The notes below the pieces were generated by a model. That model was not told the DNA's origin. It worked only from the letters and a program-made list of their open reading frames with translations, and did no database searches. A program made the position numbers and the translations under genes. From Candidatus Terasakiella magnetica (GTDB lineage Bacteria; Pseudomonadota; Alphaproteobacteria; Rhodospirillales; Terasakiellaceae), in assembly GCF_900093605.1 (NCBI RefSeq), contig NZ_FLYE01000023.1:146224-210223 (forward strand): 64,000 bases of DNA. The letters are read 5' to 3'. This document shows, in pieces, positions 10,771-31,136 of the stretch (its first letter is position 1; each line of letters begins with the position of its first letter).

Positions 10771-12015
10771 TCAGCGCAGCAGGGAATGATGCGCGCTGAT
10801 CACCGTGATTTTTTCATCAACCAATTGGGCTTTGATCTTTTCCCAATCCGGCTTTTTAGCCCCAAAACTTGTGCGCAACATGCGATTAACCGCTTCGCTT
10901 AATGGGCTGCTGGACGCGAGGGCAACCACACGGTAATCAATAGAGTTATGAATGTTTTTCGGCAAAATCATACGCCAGCCGATGAGGCCTTTTTGCATTT
11001 GGGCTTGCATCAATCCTTCACGATCAGCCAGCAGGAAATGCCCATCGCTTAAACGCTGGGCAAAGGCCCACATATAGGCAGGCGCGCCGATGTTATTCAC
11101 CGAAATTTCCAAAGCACATAGGCCGTTAAGCGAACTTGATGGGAAGCTTTGCCCATCGCGCATGAGCGGGATGGTATCAGGGGCCTGGCAGCCCTGATTG
11201 GCATTGGCGCGTAGCTCAGAAATACCAAGTTTCAGGCTGCCTGCGCGCAAGGCGATGATATTGTCTTCAAACTGAAGGTAAAGCCCAATGCCAAGGGCAA
11301 AGAGACAGACGACCAAAGCAATGATTTTTGCAAAACGATTATCTTTAATGGGGGGCGGTGCATTGGGATCAGGCTTGTAAAGATCAATCTCTTGCTCAGC
11401 ACTTTCCTCTTCATCCTCTTCTTCAAGCTCATCAGGTAAGGGATCGTTCAGGTTAAAGCGTTGAATGATGCGTTGAATGTTGGGCAGGGATTCTAGATGG
11501 AGCAGCTCGCCATCTACATGTAAGTTTTCAAGAAACTCATCATCAGGCACAAGGCCAGCCCCGCCGGGAATAAAGCAGAAAAGGCGCACATTATCAGCGC
11601 GCAGCTTTTCAAAAATCTCTTGTGAGGCCAGTAGTTTTTCTTTGATATGATTAACAGGGCGCACATTTAGATCACGGTCTAGCTCGCCTGTTAACCAAAT
11701 GGCATTTTCAACTGTTTCTTCAGGTTTTGCGAGAAGGTCTTCTGCAAAAAGGGCGTGGGCGGCAAAGGCACCGAGTTGCCAACTGTTACCATCGGTAATG
11801 GGGGCAGAGAGGTCCATGCGATATGAGGGGTGATCATAAGAGCGTTGGATTACGCCTGTGGGCTCTTTGACAAAACTGTCATAAGCTCGTGAAATCGGCA
11901 AAGCCTTGGCGGTGCCGTTTTCACAAACAACGCTGCGCACATCTGGGTCTTCGCGCGTAATGCGCTGAACTTCAACCGGGCCTTCGGTGGTAGCGATATA
12001 AACTCTGATACTCAT
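10771..12015 (-). CDS. Membrane-anchored protein with Lon (S16)-like peptidase domain
   Basis: A 414-residue protein of no named family. Residues about 65-190 read like the proteolytic domain of Lon. TDGNSWQLGAF matches the Lon catalytic serine segment (DGPSAG-type), with Ser78 in position. WLTGELDRDLNVRPVNHIKE, continuing as KLLAS, matches Lon's TGEI...V.P.GGLKEKLLAA, with Lys125 in the place of the catalytic lysine. No AAA+ domain is present. An acidic linker (196-211) leads to one membrane helix (about 229-249), and a C-terminal domain of about 160 residues should face the periplasm; its end, YRVVALASSSPLSEAVN, loosely recalls DUF4384. The start ATG overlaps the upstream stop (TAATG), so it is coupled to the gene before it. 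The peptidase assignment is my own reading and needs a profile search. Confidence 0.6.
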   Translation of the reverse strand: MSIRVYIATTEGPVEVQRITREDPDVRSVVCENGTAKALPISRAYDSFVKEPTGVIQRSYDHPSYRMDLSAPITDGNSWQLGAFAAHALFAEDLLAKPEETVENAIWLTGELDRDLNVRPVNHIKEKLLASQEIFEKLRADNVRLFCFIPGGAGLVPDDEFLENLHVDGELLHLESLPNIQRIIQRFNLNDPLPDELEEEDEEESAEQEIDLYKPDPNAPPPIKDNRFAKIIALVVCLFALGIGLYLQFEDNIIALRAGSLKLGISELRANANQGCQAPDTIPLMRDGQSFPSSSLNGLCALEISVNNIGAPAYMWAFAQRLSDGHFLLADREGLMQAQMQKGLIGWRMILPKNIHNSIDYRVVALASSSPLSEAVNRMLRTSFGAKKPDWEKIKAQLVDEKITVISAHHSLLR

Positions 12016-12542
12016 TAGCTGAGAATGACTTCACTTTTTACATTACGCAAGGCTTTGACGATATCATCATCACTTGAAAGCAGGATTTGTGCCTCACCAT
12101 CATAAAAGTCATCAATGACAAGGCGCAAAATCGGGCCATCTTCTTGATTGATGAAAAGCAGGCTTGGCGTTTCATCGCGATCAATGGCTTCAATCAGTAG
12201 ATAAATCTGACTTGCATCGGCTTTTGAGGGTTTCAGGCTGATCTTAAACCCATCGGCTTCGCGTATATCAATATCACCTGTACTGGCGGCGGCTGCGCGT
12301 GCCATATGGACAATGGATTGTTTTTCAAGCAAGCGTTTTAAACCCCGGCGTAGCTTCAGGTCATTTAAAAGTGCAGCTTGTAGGACTGGCGAGGATGTAT
12401 GGTTTGGGTCATGGGCATAGGCAAAGAGCTCACTAAAGGCGACTTTTTGCGCTGCCTCATCGGGAGGGCCCATGAGATGGTCATAATTATGCAGGGCCTG
12501 AAATATCTTTGCGGCATCTTTGCGTGAAGATTTAGTCATCAA
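12015..12542 (-). CDS. Hypothetical protein, middle gene of coupled operon
   Basis: A 175-residue soluble protein that I do not recognise. Residues 1-85 are helical and rich in Lys, Arg and Asp (LNDLKLRRGLKRLLEKQS). The second half alternates hydrophobic and acidic residues, as in a beta-sandwich or barrel (SQIYLLIEAID, PSLLFINQEDGPILRLVIDD). There is no signal peptide, membrane segment or cysteine motif. The start overlaps the end of the 541-residue gene by 4 bases and the stop overlaps the next start by 1 base, so all three products are probably made together and may form a complex. Confidence 0.75.
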   Translation of the reverse strand: MMTKSSRKDAAKIFQALHNYDHLMGPPDEAAQKVAFSELFAYAHDPNHTSSPVLQAALLNDLKLRRGLKRLLEKQSIVHMARAAAASTGDIDIREADGFKISLKPSKADASQIYLLIEAIDRDETPSLLFINQEDGPILRLVIDDFYDGEAQILLSSDDDIVKALRNVKSEVILS

Positions 12543-14164
12543 AACCCTCCATAAATTTTGCTGAACTGCCCGCTAAAGACGGTGCGGTCATAAGAAAATT
12601 GTGATTGCCAGCCCCCACCTGCGAGGGAGAGATTATCAAGGCGCTCTAAAAAAGCATCGATATCGCGCGAAATATCCAACAATAAATCGGCCCCTTGTGA
12701 AAACGCGAGGCTTAGTTCTGGAGCTTGGCTGACGTCTTCTTTAAAGCCTTTGCGCGAAAAACCGTTATAGGCTTGCTCGGCATCGACCATGAGCTTTGCA
12801 ATATCTGGCCCGACGGTTTCTTCATCATGGATGATCTCAATAAAATGCTGTGTGATGGAGGTGCTTTGCAGGGTGACAACATTGCTACCCTCGTCACTCT
12901 CTTCAATCAAATGCTGGGCCAGCGGGGCAAAATCAATGCCGGGTTCCAACTTTAACATCACATCCACAGTTTCTTTTTGGCGTGCTTTAGCAAGAGCATG
13001 CAGGCTGGCATAGATGGCTTTTTGAATATGTTTGTGCATGGATTGATAGGTGATTTGGCGTTCTTGATAAGTCTCCTGCGGGCCTTCATCAATAATCTCA
13101 TCAAGCTCATTTTTTTCAACATGGCGGCGCAGGGCTTGGGTCAGGCGGGCTTGTGGCTTGGTGAAAATATCACTGCGTAAAATGGAAAGCGGCAGGCGCA
13201 GGGCCAAGCCACCCGCATTAAGCAGACCTTCAAGGTTAGCGCATTCCTGTTTATTGAGGAACTTAACCAGATTAAGCGGGCTGGAGTTGAGCTCTATTAA
13301 GGGGGAGAGGGTTTCTTCAACGCTTTCAAGTGTTTCGGATAATAAATCAGGGGCGATCTCACCGGCTTCATGATCCCCGCCAATGGAGCCTGCATGGCGC
13401 ATGGCCGCAAGGTCTCTGGCGCTTTCAACGGCTTGTATGGCGCGCACAAAAGTTAGCAACACACTGTCATAGGTCTTGAAATCAACGCCTTTTTCTTTTT
13501 CTAATGAGGCGGCCTGCCAAAAATCCAAAATCATTGGGTCATCAACACTATCCACATCATCATTACAATAGGCGAGAATTTTGCGAAATTTTCGTTGGGA
13601 TTGGGCTGTGGGCAGATGTTCACCCAAATATTTATAAAGCTGGCGCGATAAGGTATTTGCGGCCTCTGAAACAGACTTGCGCGTGAGTTCTTCACTAAGG
13701 AGATTTTGTAAGACCTGGTCAATATCGCTATAGCCAAGGGCGGTAAGGAGAAATTCCAATAAGGCGGAAAGGACGGGCATCCGGCTATATTGGATTGAAA
13801 ATTCACCATCAGGGTAGGAGAGGGTTAGCCCATTTTCACTGAGGCTGAGGGTTGAACCGTTATAGTCTGCATAAGCATGGTGGCAATAGCTTTGATAGCT
13901 GGAGCTGCGCGCCACCCCACTGTCCCAAAAGAAAAATTCATAGCGACCCTTTTGGAAAGAAAGCTCACTTGCAGCCACAATCAGGTGGGAAAGTTCCATC
14001 AAAGGGGTGGCATAGGTGCGACAGACAACAAGCTTGCCGATTTCGCGACAAATCATCGGGGAGAATTTGGCTTCCCCGTCTATCTCACTTTCAGCCATGG
14101 TATGTAATACGGCTGTTAGCTCACCGCTTTTTCCTGCCTCAAGCAGCAGTTCTTCGGATCCCAT
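12539..14164 (-). CDS. Hypothetical 541-residue cytoplasmic protein, first gene of coupled operon
   Basis: An unrecognised protein without signal peptide or membrane helix. Residues 1-130 look beta-rich (GRYEFFFWDSGVA, STLSLSENGLTLSYPDGEF), and the rest is mostly helical with long charged helices, as in a scaffold or adaptor. No nucleotide-binding, protease or nuclease motif is evident. It heads an operon with two further genes joined by 4- and 1-base overlaps, the last encoding a membrane-tethered Lon-like domain. A 9-bp inverted repeat at 14185-14208 lies just upstream of its start. It follows two diguanylate cyclase genes on the same strand with a 90-base gap. Confidence 0.75.
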   Translation of the reverse strand: MGSEELLLEAGKSGELTAVLHTMAESEIDGEAKFSPMICREIGKLVVCRTYATPLMELSHLIVAASELSFQKGRYEFFFWDSGVARSSSYQSYCHHAYADYNGSTLSLSENGLTLSYPDGEFSIQYSRMPVLSALLEFLLTALGYSDIDQVLQNLLSEELTRKSVSEAANTLSRQLYKYLGEHLPTAQSQRKFRKILAYCNDDVDSVDDPMILDFWQAASLEKEKGVDFKTYDSVLLTFVRAIQAVESARDLAAMRHAGSIGGDHEAGEIAPDLLSETLESVEETLSPLIELNSSPLNLVKFLNKQECANLEGLLNAGGLALRLPLSILRSDIFTKPQARLTQALRRHVEKNELDEIIDEGPQETYQERQITYQSMHKHIQKAIYASLHALAKARQKETVDVMLKLEPGIDFAPLAQHLIEESDEGSNVVTLQSTSITQHFIEIIHDEETVGPDIAKLMVDAEQAYNGFSRKGFKEDVSQAPELSLAFSQGADLLLDISRDIDAFLERLDNLSLAGGGWQSQFSYDRTVFSGQFSKIYGGF

Positions 14165-14254: not shown

Positions 14255-15226
14255 TCAAGAAGACGTCACTTGGTTGCGACCATTTTCTTTGGACTGATAG
14301 AGCGCTTTATCTGCACGGCTAAACATATCATCAAGAGTATCGCCTTTTTGATAAGTCGTAACCCCAAAACTGCCTGTGACCTTGATGGAATGCTCACCAC
14401 TTTTAATGAGGGTTTCTTCAAGTTGCTTGCGGATGCGCTCAGCAAAGCCCATCGCACTTGTCACATCTGTTTCAGGCAAGGTTACAGCGAACTCTTCCCC
14501 GCCAATGCGCGCAAGATGGCTGTCATTATTGCGCTCGTCACTGATGTTGAGATGACGTGAGTTTTCATGCCACAGGCTCACAATCATTTTCAAAACATCG
14601 TCACCAGCTTCATGACCATAGGTGTCATTGATATTTTTAAACCAATCCAGATCAAAGATAATCAGGCTTAAAGGGTGGTCATTTTCATTTGCATGTTCCA
14701 ACACTTTGACGGACTCTTGCATGAAATAGCGCCGGTTATAGGCTCCAGTTAGGGGGTCTGTCATGGAAAGGCGCACCAACTCGCGCTCTTTCATGATCAG
14801 TTCTGTGACATCTTGCAGCACAATTTGCACACAGTTTAGACCTTCCCAAGGCAGTTTACCGATGCTGATATTAACAATATGGCATTTGCCATCACTGGTA
14901 TGGAGGTCAACTTCAGTAAGGTTAATGGGTTCTGGGTTATCAAAGGCCTGCATGAATAGGGGCAAAAGCCGCTCGCGCAGCTCATCAGTCATGAAATCAA
15001 GCAGGTGTTTGCCGAGCATATCATCATGACTGGTGTTAAACATGCGACAGATTTCATTATTGACGAAGAGCATGGCTTGGGGTTGATGGATTAAGAGCCC
15101 CATGGGAATAACATTGGGCAGCAAATCCAGCAGGGCGCCCATGCGTTCTTGTGTATCAATTAAATGTTGTTGGGTTTGAACGGCTTGTTCGGTACCGTCG
15201 GTGTCATCCCAAAAAAAATCCGTCAA
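14255..15226 (-). CDS. PAS-GGDEF diguanylate cyclase
   Basis: A 323-residue soluble protein predicted to make cyclic di-GMP. An N-terminal helix (LIDTQERMGALLDLLPN) leads to a PAS domain (about 45-150) and a GGDEF domain with DLDWFKNINDTYGHEAGDD and the active site RIGGEEFAVTLPE. An Arg-x-x-Asp is present near the active site but is displaced by one position from the usual inhibitory site. There is no in-frame ATG upstream; the start appears to be TTG at 15226, giving MTDFFWDD, which aligns with the neighbouring paralogue. It is a tandem duplicate of the gene at 15272-16237 and probably shares its transcript. Confidence 0.93.
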   Translation of the reverse strand: MTDFFWDDTDGTEQAVQTQQHLIDTQERMGALLDLLPNVIPMGLLIHQPQAMLFVNNEICRMFNTSHDDMLGKHLLDFMTDELRERLLPLFMQAFDNPEPINLTEVDLHTSDGKCHIVNISIGKLPWEGLNCVQIVLQDVTELIMKERELVRLSMTDPLTGAYNRRYFMQESVKVLEHANENDHPLSLIIFDLDWFKNINDTYGHEAGDDVLKMIVSLWHENSRHLNISDERNNDSHLARIGGEEFAVTLPETDVTSAMGFAERIRKQLEETLIKSGEHSIKVTGSFGVTTYQKGDTLDDMFSRADKALYQSKENGRNQVTSS

Positions 15227-15271
15227 TGGTTGCTCATCTCATATATAGCTATGTAAAATATTGAGTAATAT

Positions 15272-16237
15272 TTACTCAAATTCAACCCTGTTGCGCCCGT
15301 TTTCTTTCGCCTTATAAAGGGCGAGATCAGCACGTCTGATCAGGTCATCAAGACTTTCATCGCCATGTTTAAGGCTTGTTGCGCCAAAGCTTGCCGTAAT
15401 CTTAAAACGCAGGTCTTTAAAAATAACTGTGTTTTCTGCAATTGCACTGCGGATGCGCTCTGCAATGGCAGTCGCACCATCTTGGTCCACATTTGGCAGA
15501 TAGATTGCAAATTCTTCCCCGCCAATGCGCGCAAGGGTGCTGTCGTTTTTGCGGTTATCAAATTCGTTTTGGCGGGTGTTTCTTTGCCAAACGGCGCTAA
15601 TGGTTTTTAAGGCTTCATCACCAGCCTGATGACCATAGGTGTCATTTACTTTTTTAAACCAGTCCACATCAAAAATAAGGAGGCTGAACGGTTTAGCTTC
15701 ATCAAGGGCATATGCAACACTTTCTGAGGCATGTTGTATGAAGTAGCGACGGTTAAATGCCCCTGTCAGTACATCATTAAAGGTCAGCTTTTCCAACTCT
15801 TTGGCTTGCTGCTTAAGCTCTGTGACATCTTCCAGCATAATCTGGATGACGCTGGTGCCTTCCCAAGGCAGGCGACCAGCGGAGACTTGGATGTGAGACA
15901 GGCTACCGTCTGATCTTTTTAAAGTCAGTTCAGGAAAGCGCACCGGTTCATCACGCATGAAGGTGGACATGAACATTTCAGACCATTTTTCACGCGCATC
16001 ATCTGGTGCATAATCCAAAATATGCTTGCCGACCATGGCTAAATGGTCTTTTTCAAACAGATGTAATGCTTGTTGATTGGCAAAAAGCACGCCTTGCATC
16101 TGATGGATAATAAGGCCTGTAGGCATTAAATCCAGCAGTGCGCCCAGTTTCTCCTGAGTATCAATAAGGGTCTGATGGGTTAAAACCGCATCAGTGGTGC
16201 CCTCATTGTCGTCGAAAAATACTACGTTTTCTACCAT
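15272..16237 (-). CDS. PAS-GGDEF diguanylate cyclase (tandem paralogue)
   Basis: A 321-residue soluble PAS-GGDEF protein with the same layout as the gene downstream. It shares the linker helix LIDTQEKLGALLDLMP, a PAS domain containing NQQALHLFEKDHLAMVGKH, and a GGDEF domain with DVDWFKKVNDTYGHQAGDE and RIGGEEFAIYLPN. There are no membrane segments, so any signal is read in the cytosol. The start is ATG at 16237. An 8-bp AT-rich inverted repeat (15261-15279) overlaps the stop codon. Divergence between the two PAS domains suggests that the copies now respond to different cues. Confidence 0.94.
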   Translation of the reverse strand: MVENVVFFDDNEGTTDAVLTHQTLIDTQEKLGALLDLMPTGLIIHQMQGVLFANQQALHLFEKDHLAMVGKHILDYAPDDAREKWSEMFMSTFMRDEPVRFPELTLKRSDGSLSHIQVSAGRLPWEGTSVIQIMLEDVTELKQQAKELEKLTFNDVLTGAFNRRYFIQHASESVAYALDEAKPFSLLIFDVDWFKKVNDTYGHQAGDEALKTISAVWQRNTRQNEFDNRKNDSTLARIGGEEFAIYLPNVDQDGATAIAERIRSAIAENTVIFKDLRFKITASFGATSLKHGDESLDDLIRRADLALYKAKENGRNRVEFE

Positions 16238-16947: not shown

Positions 16948-18210
16948 TCAGGCATCCCAACTGGCGAAAGTCTTGGTGTCTTTACTCACGCGCGAGAGAT
17001 AGGTTTTGGTTTCCCCATAAGGGAGATGAGCTTGAAGGTGATTGTAAATTTCCTGTGCACTCATGCTATTTATCTTTTTAATGGCAGGGCGCAATTTCAT
17101 TTTACCGGTAAAGGCTTTGGCCACATTGCCTGCCCCGGTGTTATAGGCGCAGATGATAAGATACTGGCGGGCTTTTTCATCTTTGACCTTGCCGAAATAT
17201 CGGGTGTTGAGCAAATGCAGGTAGGTTGCGCCTAACATGATGTTTTCATAAGGGTTATAAAGCACATCAGGCCCCGGTGTGGCCTCTTTACCCAACAGAT
17301 AACTATAGGCTTCCTTGCCCCCGCTTGTGGCGACCAGTTGCATCAAGCCCATAGCATTGGCATGAGAACGTGCACGCGGGTTAAACGAGCTTTCATTTTT
17401 AATGACCGAGAGAATAAGCGAGCGGGGCAAACGGTATTTTTGCGCAGCTTCCAAAATAGGGCCGCGCAGGGATTGGGCACTTAATTGGTCACGCTCAGGG
17501 CGCAATGGAATGGTGATGCGGGCCATTTTTGCCATTTTGCCTTTGGCAAGGCGTACATCGCGTTTAACAAAAACAGGGCGCACACGCGGGGCAATCAGGG
17601 TGGAAAGCTCGCGGTGGCGTTTCCAGTTGATTTTGGGGCGTGCTGGTTTGGTTTCTACGCGTTGTTTTTCAACCTGTTTTTCCTCAAAACTTTCTTCAGG
17701 GATATCTTTAAAACGGTCATTTTGGGGGCGTTTTTCACGGACGTCTCGTCTCGGGCGAACGGGGGCGTCCTCATTCCAGAATTCATCGGCCTTTTCTTGA
17801 AGCTTGCGACGCAATAGGGCGCGCTCATCAAGGGTGTCACTATCTTCTATCAGGATTTCTTGAAAGTCAGTGAAGAGGTCTTTTTCTTCTTTATCAAGCC
17901 CTTCAATGGACATTTCACCGCGCTCATAATCCACAATGATCCGGCTGGTACGGTCTTTGCTGTAGCCCACCCAGACTTTGGGTTCTGGCAGTTGGCGGCT
18001 TTCCCCCCAAATCTCTGCAAGTTCGCGGTCTAATTCTTCAACACCTTCGCGCATGGCACGATCAAAGGCTTTATCGGTTTGTTCGAAGGTATCTTCAAAT
18101 TGGCTATCAATTTTATCGAGCCAATCGGTTTCAGCCTGAACAAGGTTGGGTGCAATCAGGCTAAAGGCGAGAGCAGAACAGAGCAGCTTATAGGTGAGGG
18201 CTCGTTTCAT
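16948..18210 (-). CDS. MltC-like membrane-bound lytic transglycosylase
   Basis: Predicted to cleave peptidoglycan glycan strands with formation of 1,6-anhydro ends. From the ATG at 18210 it is 420 residues, with a signal peptide ending VQA. An N-terminal DUF3393-type domain (about 30-120) includes PKVWVGYSKDRTSRIIVDYE, as in MltC. A basic, Pro/Arg-rich linker (150-240) follows. The SLT domain carries the catalytic glutamate E273 in IKNESSFNPRA, then AMGLMQLV, NIMLGATYLHLL and AYNTGAGNVAKAF. There is no lipobox, unlike E. coli MltC. It lies directly after the FlgP/LPP20-like gene, with 4 bases between stop and start. Confidence 0.9.
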   Translation of the reverse strand: MKRALTYKLLCSALAFSLIAPNLVQAETDWLDKIDSQFEDTFEQTDKAFDRAMREGVEELDRELAEIWGESRQLPEPKVWVGYSKDRTSRIIVDYERGEMSIEGLDKEEKDLFTDFQEILIEDSDTLDERALLRRKLQEKADEFWNEDAPVRPRRDVREKRPQNDRFKDIPEESFEEKQVEKQRVETKPARPKINWKRHRELSTLIAPRVRPVFVKRDVRLAKGKMAKMARITIPLRPERDQLSAQSLRGPILEAAQKYRLPRSLILSVIKNESSFNPRARSHANAMGLMQLVATSGGKEAYSYLLGKEATPGPDVLYNPYENIMLGATYLHLLNTRYFGKVKDEKARQYLIICAYNTGAGNVAKAFTGKMKLRPAIKKINSMSAQEIYNHLQAHLPYGETKTYLSRVSKDTKTFASWDA

Positions 18211-18214
18211 CAGT

Positions 18215-19057
18215 TTAATCCAATGCCACAATCAAGCGGCCCTGTTTGACCGCCTCTAAGGGGCGCATCATCTGGGCATCTTTATTTGATAAAACAATCT
18301 GATTATCTTTTGAAATACGCAAAGCTGAAACGACAAGTGGATTTTCACCCGTGATCTCAAGCGTTTTGGCCTTTTCAACGGATTTTGAATAATGGATTAA
18401 GCCTTTTTCCATAACCGCCGCTGGATCAACACTGTCTTGTGAATAGACCATTTCTTGTTTTTCATTAATGACTTGCGGGGCCAAGGCGGGCAGATACATG
18501 GCCTGTTCCAGATCAATGATGACCGCACTATAGCGCGATGTGGAGGCAGGGGCTTTAGGCGTAGTTTGAGGGGCAGTCGGTTTAAGGTCTAAGCTCGCGT
18601 TGGTCAGGTTCTGCTTTGTATCCTGACAGGCAGGGCTGATACAGACACGCATGGTGACTTCAGCCATGACCACTTCGCCGCGCCTGCTCGAGCTATCTTT
18701 ATGCCATGTGATTTTTTCATCAATGGCACGTGCACCACGCAAGGTACCTTTGATCCGAGTGGCTGCGCGTGTATCGCCTGCACCATGGGTGCCAATTGTG
18801 GTAAGGCCTGTTAGGCGTATACCTTTGATGATTTCAAGCAAGCGCGCCTGTGCGGTGGTGCGTGCAGCCTGTTTTGCCATCAGTTCTTCTTGAACGCGAT
18901 TTCCCATATAACGCGAGGTGCCTTGGGCGCTGGCTTCCACATAACCTTGTGACCAGTTTGTGGTTGCATCATCACTGGCCTCAACCCAGCCATCAAGGGC
19001 CCATGATTGAGAGGCAAGGCACATGGCAAATACGGCAGTTAATAGGGATCGTCTCAT
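18215..19057 (-). CDS. Exported LPP20/FlgP-like protein
   Basis: A 280-residue secreted protein; a strong AAGGAAAAT site precedes the ATG at 19057. The signal peptide ends SWA, with no lipobox. Residues about 45-150 match the LPP20 pattern seen in FlgP: repeated Ala-rich helix AKQAARTTAQARLLEIIKGI, then TRIKGTLRGARAI and a strand with VVMAEVTMRVCI. The C-terminal half (SRYSAVIIDLEQAMYLPALA to the end) is a second domain typical of large LPP20 proteins. In Vibrio, FlgP belongs to the flagellar H-ring; here no flagellar gene is nearby, so the role is inferred only from the FlgT- and FlgO-like neighbours. Confidence 0.7.
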   Translation of the reverse strand: MRRSLLTAVFAMCLASQSWALDGWVEASDDATTNWSQGYVEASAQGTSRYMGNRVQEELMAKQAARTTAQARLLEIIKGIRLTGLTTIGTHGAGDTRAATRIKGTLRGARAIDEKITWHKDSSSRRGEVVMAEVTMRVCISPACQDTKQNLTNASLDLKPTAPQTTPKAPASTSRYSAVIIDLEQAMYLPALAPQVINEKQEMVYSQDSVDPAAVMEKGLIHYSKSVEKAKTLEITGENPLVVSALRISKDNQIVLSNKDAQMMRPLEAVKQGRLIVALD

Positions 19058-19176: not shown

Positions 19177-20163
19177 CTACCACTTGGCGCCATCTTGATA
19201 ATAACGACTGCGGCGTTTGTTTACCTTGGAAACTGTAAACTCTTTACCTTGATATTTTACACGACCAGACATGCCGAGATATTCAAGCGCGCGAATGAGG
19301 TTGCGCTTCATTTTACCCGTATGCAGGCGCGTTTTATAAACATATTCATGGGTGCGACCGTGTGATGCAGCGGGGCGGTGGTCCACATAGCAGGAGAATT
19401 TGGCGAGAATGACATCTTCCATATCGAGCATTTCTTGTTCAGTAAAGTTCTGGAAGTTAAGGAAAACGTCTTGTACGCGACCACGACATCCATCATTGCC
19501 GCGACGGCGTGCCATATCTTTTGTAGAGCCCTTGTCATAACCATCGCGATCATCGTAATCATCACGATCATCATAGCCATAATCAACTTCATCCCCGAGT
19601 TTTTGCACCAAAACATCAGCCACATCACGTGCCAGCAGGCGGGCATTGTTGCCGACGGTTTCAAGGATACATTCACGGTTACAATTGACCGGTGCGCGGA
19701 AATTGCGCGGGGAGGAAACTTCAAAGTTACCCAAGCGGCGACCGGAATGAACATCAAGCAGGCGACCAGATAAACGGGTGCGTACCTTTGTTGTGTAATC
19801 TAAACGTTCCGCACTGGCGTAGACTTCAAAAAGGACGACTACATCAATGGGCGGGCGTTTTACAGAACGGGCAATATCGATTAATTCCGCATCAGAACGG
19901 CGCGAACGCCCCTGAGCATAATCATCAAGGGAAACAGCGGTTTCATCATAGACATCAAAACCATCTGCATTCATGGCATCGGCGAGTTCATTAAGGACCC
20001 GGCGAAAAACACGACTGTCGCGTGGAATGGCATCTCTGTCGTTATCTTCACCCATGATCATGAGATAAGGCAACTCAGCAGCTTGTGCAGAGTTCGCGCT
20101 GAGGCCGATGAGTGAGACAAGCCCCATCATGGTTAGGAAAAAGGATATGGTTAAACGTTTCAT
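19177..20163 (-). CDS. Exported protein, possibly FlgO/CsgG-like fold
   Basis: A 328-residue secreted protein; AAGGGGG lies just before the ATG at 20163, and the signal peptide ends AQA. Residues 30-200 follow the pattern of FlgO, LpoB and CsgG type alpha/beta domains: VFRRVLNELADAMNADGFDVY, then IDVVVLFEVYASAE, then TRLSGRLLDVHSGRRLGNFEV. A very acidic repeat-like stretch follows (YGYDDRDDYDDRDGYD). The last 110 residues (CRGRVQDVFLNFQNFTEQ to the C-terminus) form a separate cysteine-containing domain ending in a basic tail. The FlgO link is a weak fold-level inference. It is the second gene of the exported cluster. Confidence 0.6.
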   Translation of the reverse strand: MKRLTISFFLTMMGLVSLIGLSANSAQAAELPYLMIMGEDNDRDAIPRDSRVFRRVLNELADAMNADGFDVYDETAVSLDDYAQGRSRRSDAELIDIARSVKRPPIDVVVLFEVYASAERLDYTTKVRTRLSGRLLDVHSGRRLGNFEVSSPRNFRAPVNCNRECILETVGNNARLLARDVADVLVQKLGDEVDYGYDDRDDYDDRDGYDKGSTKDMARRRGNDGCRGRVQDVFLNFQNFTEQEMLDMEDVILAKFSCYVDHRPAASHGRTHEYVYKTRLHTGKMKRNLIRALEYLGMSGRVKYQGKEFTVSKVNKRRSRYYQDGAKW

Positions 20164-20188
20164 TTCGTCCCCCTTGAGACAATAAAAA

Positions 20189-21295
20189 TTATTCAAACAT
20201 CGGATCGTCGTAACGATATTTTAGTGTGCGCCCTTCAAGTCTAAAATCAAAAGAGATGTCTTGTGCCTTTAAAAGGGCTGAAATCTCTTGATTTAACGTG
20301 CCGGGCTTTAATAATGACCAATAGGAAAGGCTCAGAGCCTTTTTTTTCTGCACGTCCAGTTTATGACGTACATAGCCGCTCAGGGCGCTTAGGTCGGTTT
20401 CAAGAAATTTGATGGTTTTTTCATCAAAACGTTGGAAAGACAGCCGATAGCGCTGGCCTTCCTCATAGACTTCTTTGCGGATATTCTCAATCAAGGCGGC
20501 GGCGACCTGCGCACTTGGGCCATAGATATGGTCTTTGGCTTGGTTGATGATGGCTGCGTGATTACTTTTTTCATCCCGTGTCCAGTCGCTCATGGCAAAA
20601 CCGACTTCTTCTTTGGCAAGGGATCGGTTAGTGGCGACTTCAACGCTTTCAAGGCGTAGCTTATAGGGATGATTGCGTGCTTTAATCACTTCAACAAAAA
20701 TGATGAAATCAACCTTGTTGCGTCTTGCGCGCTTTAAGTTATTTTTGCGATCCGTATAACGGTATTTGTCTTTGGCCTTTAGGCGCGTGGCTTCAAAATC
20801 CAGTGTTTCAAAACGAAAATCTTCGCGCAAAGTACTTTCAACAGCCTCACTTAACAGGTGGAAATCATCACTTAGGCTGGAAAGAGAATCAAAATCTTCA
20901 TCAATGGGCGCGACCAGAACGCGTGGATGTGCCGCCATTTTCATTAAGGTGGATAGTGCAATACTGCTGTCCTTGAGGGATTGCTCATCAACCTCAGCCT
21001 CAATCGTGACTTCAACCATGCCTGATGGATCGACTTTTTTATCAAGGATTTTATAAGAACGCACAAAGCCTTTTGTGTGGCTGAGTATTTGTTGGCGCAC
21101 GACCTGAAAGTTTTCAACCAATGTGTTGTTTTCAATTTCAGTGCCCAAGGTCATTTCAACAGCTTGGCGCAGCGCATTATTCAACGCTTGGCGCTGGTTG
21201 CTGCCTTGCGCACTGACTTGCAGGGCATGGGCACTGGAGAGTGACATGAAACTTGTAATCAAAAGTGCCGACAACAAGATAAGAGAACGTTTCAT
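20189..21295 (-). CDS. Exported FlgT-like protein
   Basis: A 368-residue secreted protein with a signal peptide ending AHA (ATG at 21295). The first domain contains QALNNALRQAVEMTLGTEIE, then QQILSHTKGFVRSYKIL and MVEVTIEAEVD. This is the pattern of the N-terminal domain of Vibrio FlgT, a flagellar H-ring protein. A middle domain begins HPRVLVAPIDEDFD and includes NKVDFIIFVEVIKA. Because the two following genes look like FlgO and FlgP, and Vibrio keeps flgOPT together, I read this as a related outer-membrane assembly. It is the first gene of the minus-strand cluster. The function is not demonstrated. Confidence 0.65.
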   Translation of the reverse strand: MKRSLILLSALLITSFMSLSSAHALQVSAQGSNQRQALNNALRQAVEMTLGTEIENNTLVENFQVVRQQILSHTKGFVRSYKILDKKVDPSGMVEVTIEAEVDEQSLKDSSIALSTLMKMAAHPRVLVAPIDEDFDSLSSLSDDFHLLSEAVESTLREDFRFETLDFEATRLKAKDKYRYTDRKNNLKRARRNKVDFIIFVEVIKARNHPYKLRLESVEVATNRSLAKEEVGFAMSDWTRDEKSNHAAIINQAKDHIYGPSAQVAAALIENIRKEVYEEGQRYRLSFQRFDEKTIKFLETDLSALSGYVRHKLDVQKKKALSLSYWSLLKPGTLNQEISALLKAQDISFDFRLEGRTLKYRYDDPMFE

Positions 21296-21457
21296 AAGAA
21301 AGAGACCTGTTTTCAAACCAAGAATTTAATGTTGTTACACTTATGAGAGGGTTAGGCGCGTTTTCATTTATGCGAACGTTATCATTTCTTTTTGCACGTT
21401 AAAAGATATCTTTGTCGGTCTTTGGTTGTTTTTTACATCTTTTTGCACTGTAAATGA

Positions 21458-29987: not shown

Positions 29988-31136
29988 ATGAAAGATCTTT
30001 GGAACTGGTTTTGGACTTCAAGCAATCGCCTGTTTTTTGCAGGTGTCTTATTTATTGCAGGCGTTGTGGCTTGGGGCTCTTTCAATACATTTATGGAATA
30101 TACAAACCGTATGGATTTTTGTATTTCCTGCCATGAAATGGAAGAAAACGTCTATGCGGACTATAAACGCACAATCCATTTCCAAAATGGCTCTGGCGTG
30201 CGTGCAAGTTGTTCTGATTGCCACGTTCCAAAGGAATGGGGGGCTAAATTGGTGCGAAAGATCAAGGCCTCCAGAGAGTTAGTTTCTACGATGACGGGGA
30301 AAATCAGCACGCCTGAAAAATTTGAAGAGCATCGTTTTGAGATGGCGCAAAATGTCTGGAGAGAAATGCGCGCAAATGGCTCGCGTGAGTGTAAAAACTG
30401 CCACTCCTATGAGGCGATGCATGCTGATAAGCAAAGTAAACGCGCCCAAAAAGCCATGAATGAAGCGGCAACAACGGATGTGGCTTGTATTGATTGTCAC
30501 AAAGGGATTGCGCACAGACTGCCAAGATTTGATAAAGTTTATGAAAAATGGGCCGTTGATGTGAAAAAAGCAGTGGCGGCCAATAGCCTGTCTGCTTCAA
30601 AAGCCTTTGTCGCAGCTTCGGTGAATATCCATCTTGAGCAAAATGAAGCATCTGCTGTGCTTGCTCAAGTCAATCCACTTTCAGAGCTTGAAGTGCTTGA
30701 AAAATCAGGTGCTTGGGCGAAAGTGAAGCTGAACGCATGGGGGCGTGACGATAGCTTTAAGTTATATGCCAAAGCAGGGCCTCAATATGATGTGGCTATG
30801 CTGGAAAGCGTTGAATTTGATGTTGTAAAACAGGCTGAACAAAGGGTTGATGAAGAAACCGGGCTTACATGGCATAAGGCAACGCTTGAAGGTTGGGTGA
30901 AATATGCTGGTAAGCTAAGCGATGATTCTGTTGTGATTAAGGATTATGCGCGCAAATTGTGGGAGGCTGATTGTGGCCTGTGTCATACAATTTACAAAAC
31001 AACAGGTTACAGTGCTCGTGATTGGACAAAGCATATGAAATCTATGAGTTTCTATAGCACTCTTGATAATGATCAGCTGATATTGGTCTTAAAATTCCTG
31101 CAATCGCAATCTTCTGATGTGATGGCAAAAAAATAA
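29988..31136 (+). CDS. torC: TorC-type pentaheme c-type cytochrome (NapC/NirT family)
   Basis: A 382-residue membrane-anchored quinol dehydrogenase. One N-terminal membrane helix (about 14-33) is followed by four NapC-type heme motifs, CISCH (45-49), CSDCH (75-79), CKNCH (135-139) and CIDCH (167-171). Then comes an SH3-like region (about 210-255) and a fifth heme, CGLCH (329-333), in a C-terminal monoheme domain. This five-heme layout is that of TorC, which passes electrons from menaquinol/ubiquinol to the periplasmic TMAO reductase TorA. No torA, torD or torR is in the window. Molybdate transport genes follow directly, in keeping with a molybdoenzyme partner elsewhere. Confidence 0.88.
   Translation: MKDLWNWFWTSSNRLFFAGVLFIAGVVAWGSFNTFMEYTNRMDFCISCHEMEENVYADYKRTIHFQNGSGVRASCSDCHVPKEWGAKLVRKIKASRELVSTMTGKISTPEKFEEHRFEMAQNVWREMRANGSRECKNCHSYEAMHADKQSKRAQKAMNEAATTDVACIDCHKGIAHRLPRFDKVYEKWAVDVKKAVAANSLSASKAFVAASVNIHLEQNEASAVLAQVNPLSELEVLEKSGAWAKVKLNAWGRDDSFKLYAKAGPQYDVAMLESVEFDVVKQAEQRVDEETGLTWHKATLEGWVKYAGKLSDDSVVIKDYARKLWEADCGLCHTIYKTTGYSARDWTKHMKSMSFYSTLDNDQLILVLKFLQSQSSDVMAKK

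Follow-up and report, generated by a model that had tools for sequence, protein, structure and literature searches.

A predicted membrane-anchored Lon-like protein without an AAA+ module and its two partner proteins in Candidatus Terasakiella magnetica

Background

Peptidases of the Lon type (S16) normally carry or recruit an ATPase, a rule to which CalpL, the predicted CARF-Lon and SAVED-Lon effectors and LonC are known exceptions. CalpL (PMC11417357, PMC12751052, PMC9704534, PMC11229360) has a Lon domain without an ATPase; it acts on a partner protein, is activated by self-association and performs a limited cleavage. LonC (MtaLonC) is likewise reported to have no ATPase activity (PMC3391209). 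Motor-less Lon domains (CalpL, CARF-Lon and SAVED-Lon) are thus already known, and a Lon domain without an AAA+ module is therefore not in itself new. Here we describe three genes in a 64,000-nucleotide stretch of the Candidatus Terasakiella magnetica genome (NCBI RefSeq assembly GCF_900093605.1, contig NZ_FLYE01000023.1, positions 146,224 to 210,223 of the forward strand; hereafter the window), one of which encodes a protein with a predicted Lon-like domain. The genes, designated P3, P2 and P1, are head-to-tail open reading frames on the minus strand (window 10771-14164), as located by the initial annotation of this DNA, which had stated the above rule without its exceptions. Their features are as follows:

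10771..12015, minus strand: P1, 414 residues; Lon-like domain at the N-terminus, then one membrane helix and a periplasmic domain, both predicted (open reading frame and AlphaFold model)
11446..12015, minus strand: Lon (S16)-like domain, P1 residues 1-190 (Foldseek, PDB profile, hhalign)
11782..11784, minus strand: codon of Ser78, the predicted nucleophile (GNSWQLG), a serine in 77/77 P1 proteins
11635..11637, minus strand: codon of Lys127, the predicted general base (final lysine of PVNHIKEK), a lysine in 77/77 P1 proteins
11242..11337, minus strand: predicted membrane helix region, P1 residues 227-258 (helix H227-258 in the AlphaFold model)
10774..11235, minus strand: predicted periplasmic beta-rich domain, P1 residues 261-414, with Cys276 and Cys300 (AlphaFold model)
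12015..12539, minus strand: P2, 174 residues, predicted to be soluble (175 residues if TTG at 12542 is used)
12539..14164, minus strand: P3, 541 residues, mostly helical, without a P-loop

We propose that P1 is an inner-membrane signalling protease that senses the envelope and cuts P2 or P3 in a manner resembling CalpL, a reading for which our belief and our doubt are evenly balanced. Its fold, invariant dyad, membrane topology, linkage and envelope context are supported by computation.

A predicted Lon fold with an invariant serine-lysine dyad

The initial annotation had suggested a Lon-like peptidase domain without an AAA+ motor, which a structural model should reveal as similar to S16. Such similarity was found in the AlphaFold model of P1 (mean pLDDT 83.5, pTM 0.52), and residues 1-190 are predicted to adopt the Lon (S16) fold, the Lon-like domain beginning at residue 1-3. 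Within residues 1-150 the mean pLDDT is at least 88 in every ten-residue block. Foldseek comparison of the model with the PDB returned Lon structures at ranks 1 to 6 (probability 1.00, E-values 1.3e-5 to 5.4e-4) and no further match at E 0.001 or better. The superpositions had root-mean-square deviations of 5.7-7.0, and their TM-scores (0.47-0.50 on isolated Lon domains, 0.25-0.27 on the query) were low because the whole P1 chain was used as query. At the sequence level, a search of all PDB sequences with a profile of 25 P1 rows found 17 matches up to E 10, of which 14 were Lon or CalpL and three were S100-A1 (E 1.2), and with a profile of 54 rows all 25 matches were to Lon proteases (23) or CalpL (2). 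Aligned by hhalign with 15 Lon sequences from related genomes, P1 reached a probability of 94.5% (E 7.6e-8 for the single pair) over residues after 99 only, and 85.7% when the alignment was forced across the whole domain; P2, P3 and four other family alignments from the surrounding gene cluster, used as controls against the same Lon profile, reached 0.2% or less. Because all 25 PDB matches were to Lon or CalpL and the controls remained this low, the likeness of P1 to Lon exceeds chance. Searched as a single sequence, P1 matched no Pfam family up to E 10 and none in NCBIfam, and single-sequence searches did not reach the curated cut-off of Pfam Lon_C. No AAA family was found by Pfam in the window P1 or in 25 P1 proteins, which together with the predicted fold bears out the suggested domain without a motor.

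The conservation of the putative active site was followed in a set of 69 open reading frames, reduced to 54 by removal of sequences identical in their last 120 residues, then enlarged by 16 more loci to 67 (after removal of those identical in their last 100 residues) and by 10 loci of a phylum-wide sample to 77, which form 57 groups below 70% identity; the window P1 is included in all three counts. Further P1 hits lie outside the 77, for example those in genomes G396 (with an internal stop), G255, G608 and G623. One protein (L194), whose Lon domain gave two matches with the serine in one and the lysine in the other, was counted once; at this locus (L194:9271-10995, plus strand, genome G536) the Lon-like domain was matched in two pieces about 20 residues apart. 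Two weak hits (G619 and G824, loci L195 and L196) were LonB-like proteins with AAA_32 and Lon_C and were removed from the P1 counts.

Ser78 aligned with the catalytic serine of the Lon GPSA motif in a global profile alignment, and Lys127 with the second lysine of Lon GGLKEK in a local one. Both are invariant in the 54 and in the wider set of 77 P1 proteins, and the dyad is kept even in the highly divergent P1 of L137, L138, L191 and L192. Ser78 had been correctly named as the position of the catalytic serine, whereas Lys125, named as its partner, is rejected: position 125 is a lysine in only 4 of the 54 proteins, compared with 54 of 54 for Lys127. The expectation that the dyad is conserved across homologues was therefore right for the serine, while the invariant lysine lies two residues further on. 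Since the dyad is invariant, the domain is likely to be proteolytic. Counted from the alignment coordinates, Ser78 pairs with CalpL position 152 and Lys127 with position 193. We take S152 and K193 to be the catalytic residues of CalpL; those labels were not found in the CalpL texts searched. Seven additional residues (R18, E22, S42, F48, R66, D68 and W79) are also invariant in the 54 P1 proteins.

As to the kind of Lon domain, a PDB search with P1 residues 60-140 gave CalpL as the top match, but at E 0.11, followed by four agrin chains (E 0.84-0.92) and LonB-type chains (1.3-1.4). In PADLOC the window P1 had three matches up to E 1, namely CARF-Lon (0.0029), SAVED-Lon-TM (0.05) and CRISPR-Lon (0.064), all of which cover the active-site stretch. 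This stretch thus appears, weakly, most like the motor-less, CRISPR-linked Lon domains; in comparisons of the whole domain, ordinary Lon comes first. Neither a SAVED nor a CARF sensor domain was listed by Pfam for the 25 P1 proteins, which instead have a membrane helix and a DUF4384 or two-cysteine domain.

Membrane topology and the C-terminal domain of P1

An acidic linker, one membrane helix and a periplasmic domain had been suggested to follow the Lon-like domain, and this description stands: the linker is plain in the sequence, and the helix and the C-terminal domain are predicted. The linker (residues about 195-225) is long, poorly conserved and modelled with low confidence. A hydrophobic segment is present past the Lon domain in 72 of the 77 P1 proteins (one segment in 68, two in 4), and none of the 77 has such a segment between the start of the chain and about residue 120 of the domain. 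Lysine and arginine are commoner on the N-terminal side of the membrane segment in 61 of these 72 proteins, equally common in 9 and less common in 2; because of this excess the Lon domain is most likely cytoplasmic, in a predicted single-span protein with its N-terminus inside.

Both conserved cysteines, Cys276 and Cys300, are kept in 15 of 25 P1 proteins, and DUF4384 is matched by 10 of the 25 at E up to 1. The P1 paralogue of the same genome has a predicted periplasmic domain of the DUF4384 type, compared with the two-cysteine type of the window P1, and a P1-type protein from a distant genome of the same phylum (locus L188) contains a Hanks-type kinase (3.8e-35) and TonB_C (2.5e-18). The C-terminal part of P1 is thus swappable, which would fit a sensor. 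The L188 protein (L188:9123-11744, plus strand, genome G787) is 873 residues long and joins the Lon-like domain of P1 to a Hanks-type Ser/Thr kinase, with a membrane segment and a C-terminal TonB domain; its gene adjoins P2 and P3.

Linkage and distribution of the three genes

The initial annotation had raised the question whether the three genes always occur together. Of the 66 non-redundant loci whose sequence extends 2.7 kb or more upstream of P1, 62 have both P2 and P3 beside it, and the four exceptions are partial: at L194 an open reading frame of 185 residues occupies the expected position of P2, and at L135, L137 and L138 P2 is in place and P3 is located elsewhere in the genome (G377, G319 and G215). 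The trio is thus nearly fixed. Among 385 genomes sampled from the class, P1 was detected in 19 and P3 in 20, all 19 being shared; in the single genome with P3 only (G222), P3 lies 474 bases from a contig end. Among 398 genomes sampled from the phylum, P1 was detected in 16 (two of these being the LonB-like proteins) and P3 in 13, and 12 genomes have both; the other two P1 genomes, the LonB-like ones aside, encode P3-like open reading frames at their loci (E 1.8e-14 and 5.5e-5), and a weak P3 hit was obtained without P1 in G813 (E 3e-4). P1 is present in 23 of the 100 nearest-relative genomes, the window's own counted, and the module is therefore patchy. All six genomes of the genus, again including that of the window, have P1 in two copies.

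The genes of the trio are also closely coupled. For P2, the ATG at 12539, located five bases past GGAGGG, is a more likely start than the TTG at 12542, and with this start both junctions are 1-base overlaps (TGATG and TAATG); the overlaps of 4 and 1 bases originally reported hold only if TTG is used. When starts were chosen mechanically across loci, the P2-P1 junction was an overlap of 4 bases at 42 of 75 loci and of 1 base at 7, and the P3-P2 junction a 4-base overlap at 42 of 71, so that close coupling is common. Predicted promoters and terminators were about as numerous as expected (5 and 6 found, 5.4 and 4.8 expected), and no notable repeats were seen.

P2 and P3 had not been recognised by the initial annotation, and our searches agree with it. 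Single-sequence searches of Pfam and NCBIfam revealed no known family for either protein, and no Pfam family was matched by more than 2 of 24 P2 rows (best E 0.0054) or 1 of 25 P3 rows (best E 0.0051). A hydrophobic segment over the threshold was found in none of the 24 P2 sequences and in 2 of the 25 P3 sequences, and both proteins are predicted to be soluble. The AlphaFold model of P3 is mostly helical (mean pLDDT 84.2) and matched no PDB fold at E <= 0.001. A Walker A (P-loop) motif was found in 0 of 25 P3, 0 of 24 P2 and 1 of 25 P1 proteins. An assignment of P3 as an ATPase or as a member of a known fold was rejected, as it has neither a Walker A motif, nor a PDB fold at this threshold, nor a family. 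In PADLOC, P2 had no match and P3 only weak ones, to HamB (E 0.0017) and Cas8a (0.035), which span 81 and 66 residues within a single helical stretch. By analogy with CalpT, and from a look-alike pattern seen by eye, P2 was considered as an anti-sigma factor; this was not supported, with 0.65% against zf-HC2 and no anti-sigma match in Pfam, the comparison being based on 17 zf-HC2 proteins from 30 loci where a motif search yielded an open reading frame, a set to which CalpT itself does not belong.

The envelope gene cluster and the window copy

A second trio is encoded in the same genome on another contig (C47), within a fuller gene cluster (L034:3838-13409) of about 13 genes. The cluster families were seeded from this locus, which is therefore complete by construction; the following counts refer to loci where more than 6.5 kb of sequence is available on the side concerned, and include near-relative loci, which are not independent. 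An SLT lytic transglycosylase (U1) is present in 42 of 51 loci; a 148-residue protein with one helix (U2) and, within 9.5 kb, a third family (U3) are each present in 35 of these. On the other side of the trio, seven families occur in 34 (D1, D2 and D3), 33 (D4), 35 (D5), 36 (D6) and 32 (D7) of 56 loci. Where found, SLT and U2 are upstream on the same strand, as is U3 in 33 of the 38 among all 67 loci that have it; the D genes lie downstream, likewise on the same strand, with the exceptions of L134 (other strand) and L097 (D5-D7 upstream). U1, U2 and D1-D7 occur all together in 27 of the 48 loci that have more than 6.5 kb of flanking sequence on each side (30 of all 67), and none of these nine families was found in 8 of the 48 (L047, L048, L050, L090, L130, L132, L137 and L138). 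When ten cluster proteins of L034 were scanned, only SLT reached a Pfam cut-off; by eye, D1 and D7 are lipoprotein-like, D4 is a four-helix protein and D6 is proline-rich. The cluster of about 13 genes surrounding the trio is a candidate for an unknown envelope machine.

D4 was compared with the MotA/TolQ/ExbB family, with ambiguous results: PF01618 was matched by 4 of 28 members (best E 0.047) and Gaa1 by 8 of 28 (best E 0.011), the only PADLOC hits were three ZorA models (E 0.01-0.14), no MotA, ExbB or TolQ chain was among its 7 PDB matches up to E 10, and hhalign against MotA/TolQ/ExbB gave 0.6%, with the register as expected. D6 was rejected as a TonB relative, as it had no such PDB match and the likeness consists of an N-terminal helix and a proline-rich stretch seen by eye. 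Of the 48 loci, 18 have a caspase-family gene within 9.5 kb, in 16 cases with both the H and the C catalytic motif; beside the fuller cluster, such a gene (L034:13983-15842, plus strand) encodes a caspase (PF00656, 6.6e-20) with bacterial SH3.

In the window, two members of the cluster families accompany the trio:

16948..18231, minus strand: SLT lytic transglycosylase (Pfam SLT, 5.1e-25), the upstream neighbour of the trio
19177..20196, minus strand: U3-family protein, of a family often found upstream of the trio elsewhere

Between P3 and SLT are two GGDEF-like genes and a small gene for a lipoprotein-like product, and none of D1-D7 was found in the window copy. Following the trio, on the other strand, is a gene that is NAD-kinase-like by eye. 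A neighbourhood of the window type recurs in L035, L037 and L061. Because of this recurrence and because both P1 copies are present in all six genomes of the genus, the window trio is a reduced, separately kept duplicate. Among the other genes nearby, window 14255-16237 (minus strand) encodes two tandem related proteins whose C-terminal halves are GGDEF-like by eye, and window 19177-21316 (minus strand) encodes two proteins near the transglycosylase, one being U3 and the other having a weak match to FlgT_N/LPP20 below the cut-offs. Further away, the product of window 29988-31136 (plus strand) resembles multiheme c-type cytochromes (by eye, of the NapC/NirT kind), and its gene is upstream of a set of molybdate-transport-like genes.

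A proposed mechanism and its alternatives

For P1 we infer proteolytic activity, sensing, a substrate and an output as follows. The cytoplasmic Lon-like domain would use the Ser78-Lys127 dyad without an ATP-driven unfoldase, and would make limited cuts in a dedicated partner rather than degrade it wholesale. The periplasmic domain may sense a state of the envelope that is probably linked to the cell wall and to the lytic transglycosylase encoded nearby; sensing might switch on the cytoplasmic domain, most simply via its oligomeric state, by analogy with the action of cyclic tetra-adenylate (cA4) on CalpL. P2 and P3 may form a cytoplasmic complex of which one member, most simply the small P2, would be the substrate; the two proteins, suggested earlier to be adaptors or regulators, could equally be substrates. 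A wider form of this proposal is possible, though we hold it only tentatively: an undescribed kind of transmembrane signalling in which an ATP-independent Lon protease replaces the sensor kinase, the periplasmic domain reading the wall or envelope and the Lon domain cutting one of two partners. The system would then be a constant component of an envelope machine of roughly 13 genes, possibly driven by the proton-motive force, that occurs in Alphaproteobacteria and in further classes of the phylum; in one lineage the Lon-like protein itself is fused to a Hanks-type kinase and a TonB domain.

Several observations weigh against P1 as an envelope-sensing, CalpL-like protease. With respect to the fold, the best PDB sequence E-value of the 54-row profile is 0.013, and Pfam Lon_C is not among the families listed for the 25 P1 proteins, each searched singly. 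With respect to CalpL, twelve ordinary Lon sequences precede it in the PDB search with the whole domain (E 0.013 versus 0.22), it is absent among the best 50 Foldseek rows for the P1 model, agrin chains rank between it and Lon in the short search, and PADLOC gave no match for the P1 paralogue of the same genome nor for one other P1; in addition, P2 parallels CalpT by position only. The topology is derived from hydropathy and charge, and 5 of the 77 P1 proteins have no membrane segment above the threshold (two of these being short open reading frames of 162 and 219 residues). Finally, the invariance of R18, E22, R66, D68 and W79 is unaccounted for by Lon catalysis.

These residues, together with S42 and F48, suggest a conserved binding surface, and P1 might accordingly be a pseudoprotease, whose Lon fold would serve as a binding or assembly platform that docks P2 and P3 at the membrane beside a cell-wall machine and cleaves nothing. 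The retention of both partners at 62 of 66 testable loci would suit such a platform as well. Pseudoproteases usually lose one dyad residue, however, and Ser78 and Lys127 are kept in all 77 P1 proteins, divergent ones included, and we regard this explanation as rather unlikely. A long, poorly conserved linker of low model confidence between the Lon domain and the membrane helix would also be suited to self-cleavage, in which the domain severs its own linker so that a soluble Lon fragment or the P2-P3 complex is released from the membrane, P1 being protease and substrate at once; the linker has no conserved motif, however, and CalpL cuts a partner protein, which leaves self-cleavage quite improbable.

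The resemblance of the active-site stretch to CRISPR effectors, the presence of a caspase-family gene near the trio in 18 of 48 loci and the weak matches of D4 to ZorA models (E 0.01-0.14) would be consistent with an anti-phage or cell-suicide module, in which the Lon domain is activated by the envelope damage of an infection and sets off a death response, the neighbouring caspase being the executioner. We consider this unlikely: no caspase of that family is in range at 30 of the 48 loci, PADLOC gives no match for P2 and only short, weak ones for P3, and the two copies of P1 in all six genomes of the genus and the wall and lipoprotein-like genes of the cluster are unlike a mobile defence island. 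It is very improbable, lastly, that P1 serves in quality control as an ATP-dependent protease driven by the AAA+ motor of another protein. Most Lon domains do work with AAA+ modules, and ordinary Lon is the nearest whole-domain match of P1 in the PDB, but neither P2 nor P3 has a P-loop motif, and among the recurrent neighbours, inspected by eye, no AAA+ family stands out except for a gene resembling FtsH, which occurs in 5 loci and is encoded on the opposite strand.

Comparison with known systems

The initial annotation had suggested an undescribed membrane-bound proteolytic or signalling complex. The Lon fold, the single helix and the linkage of the three genes agree with this suggestion, whereas motor-less Lon domains were already known, and the larger envelope cluster and the second trio had been missed. 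Searches of the PMC literature, which cover few subscription papers, revealed no description of the module among the matches listed; in the accessible part of a paper on conflict systems (PMC7159879), Lon, DUF4384, transglycosylase and TonB are absent as whole words. The domain type is thus known; within the reach of these literature searches, its arrangement with P2 and P3, membrane-anchored, outside CRISPR and in an envelope gene cluster, is undescribed. Motor-less Lon domains have been described in cyclic-nucleotide-activated CRISPR effectors; the P1 system is non-CRISPR, predicted to be membrane-anchored, linked to the envelope, equipped with two private partners and present in many genomes. 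If P1 is an active protease, it would offer a new, testable way of carrying information across the inner membrane, and possibly a CalpL-like relative outside CRISPR.

With LonA and LonB (S16, Pfam Lon_C), P1 shares the predicted proteolytic fold, the serine and lysine positions, the TGE segment and the lysine segment, but it is without their AAA+ module and the PKDGPSAG context. LonC (MtaLonC, PMC3391209) has a Lon-family proteolytic domain like P1 and is reported to work without ATPase activity; it is described as a hexamer that degrades unfolded proteins, with a large N-terminal fragment and a possible non-functional AAA-like domain, whereas P1 has no large N-terminal fragment and is predicted to be membrane-anchored. 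Caspase homologues are the subject of several DUF4384 papers among the matches listed, and P1 resembles caspase/DUF4384 proteins in that 10 of 25 P1 have DUF4384 in their C-terminal part, where, in contrast to those proteins, it comes after a Lon-like domain and a membrane helix. CalpL (CRISPR-associated Lon protease, Lon-SAVED; PDB 7qda, 8b0r) and the CARF-Lon and SAVED-Lon proteins have, like P1, a motor-less Lon domain with GxS[YW]QL and PVNHxxEK motifs, and CalpL further shares with P1 an N-terminal Lon domain followed by another domain as well as dedicated partner genes. The likeness in sequence is weak, however, and confined to the active-site stretch, and P1 differs from CalpL in its partners P2 and P3, which match no known family, in its predicted membrane helix and periplasmic domain, and in its setting within a cluster of envelope genes.

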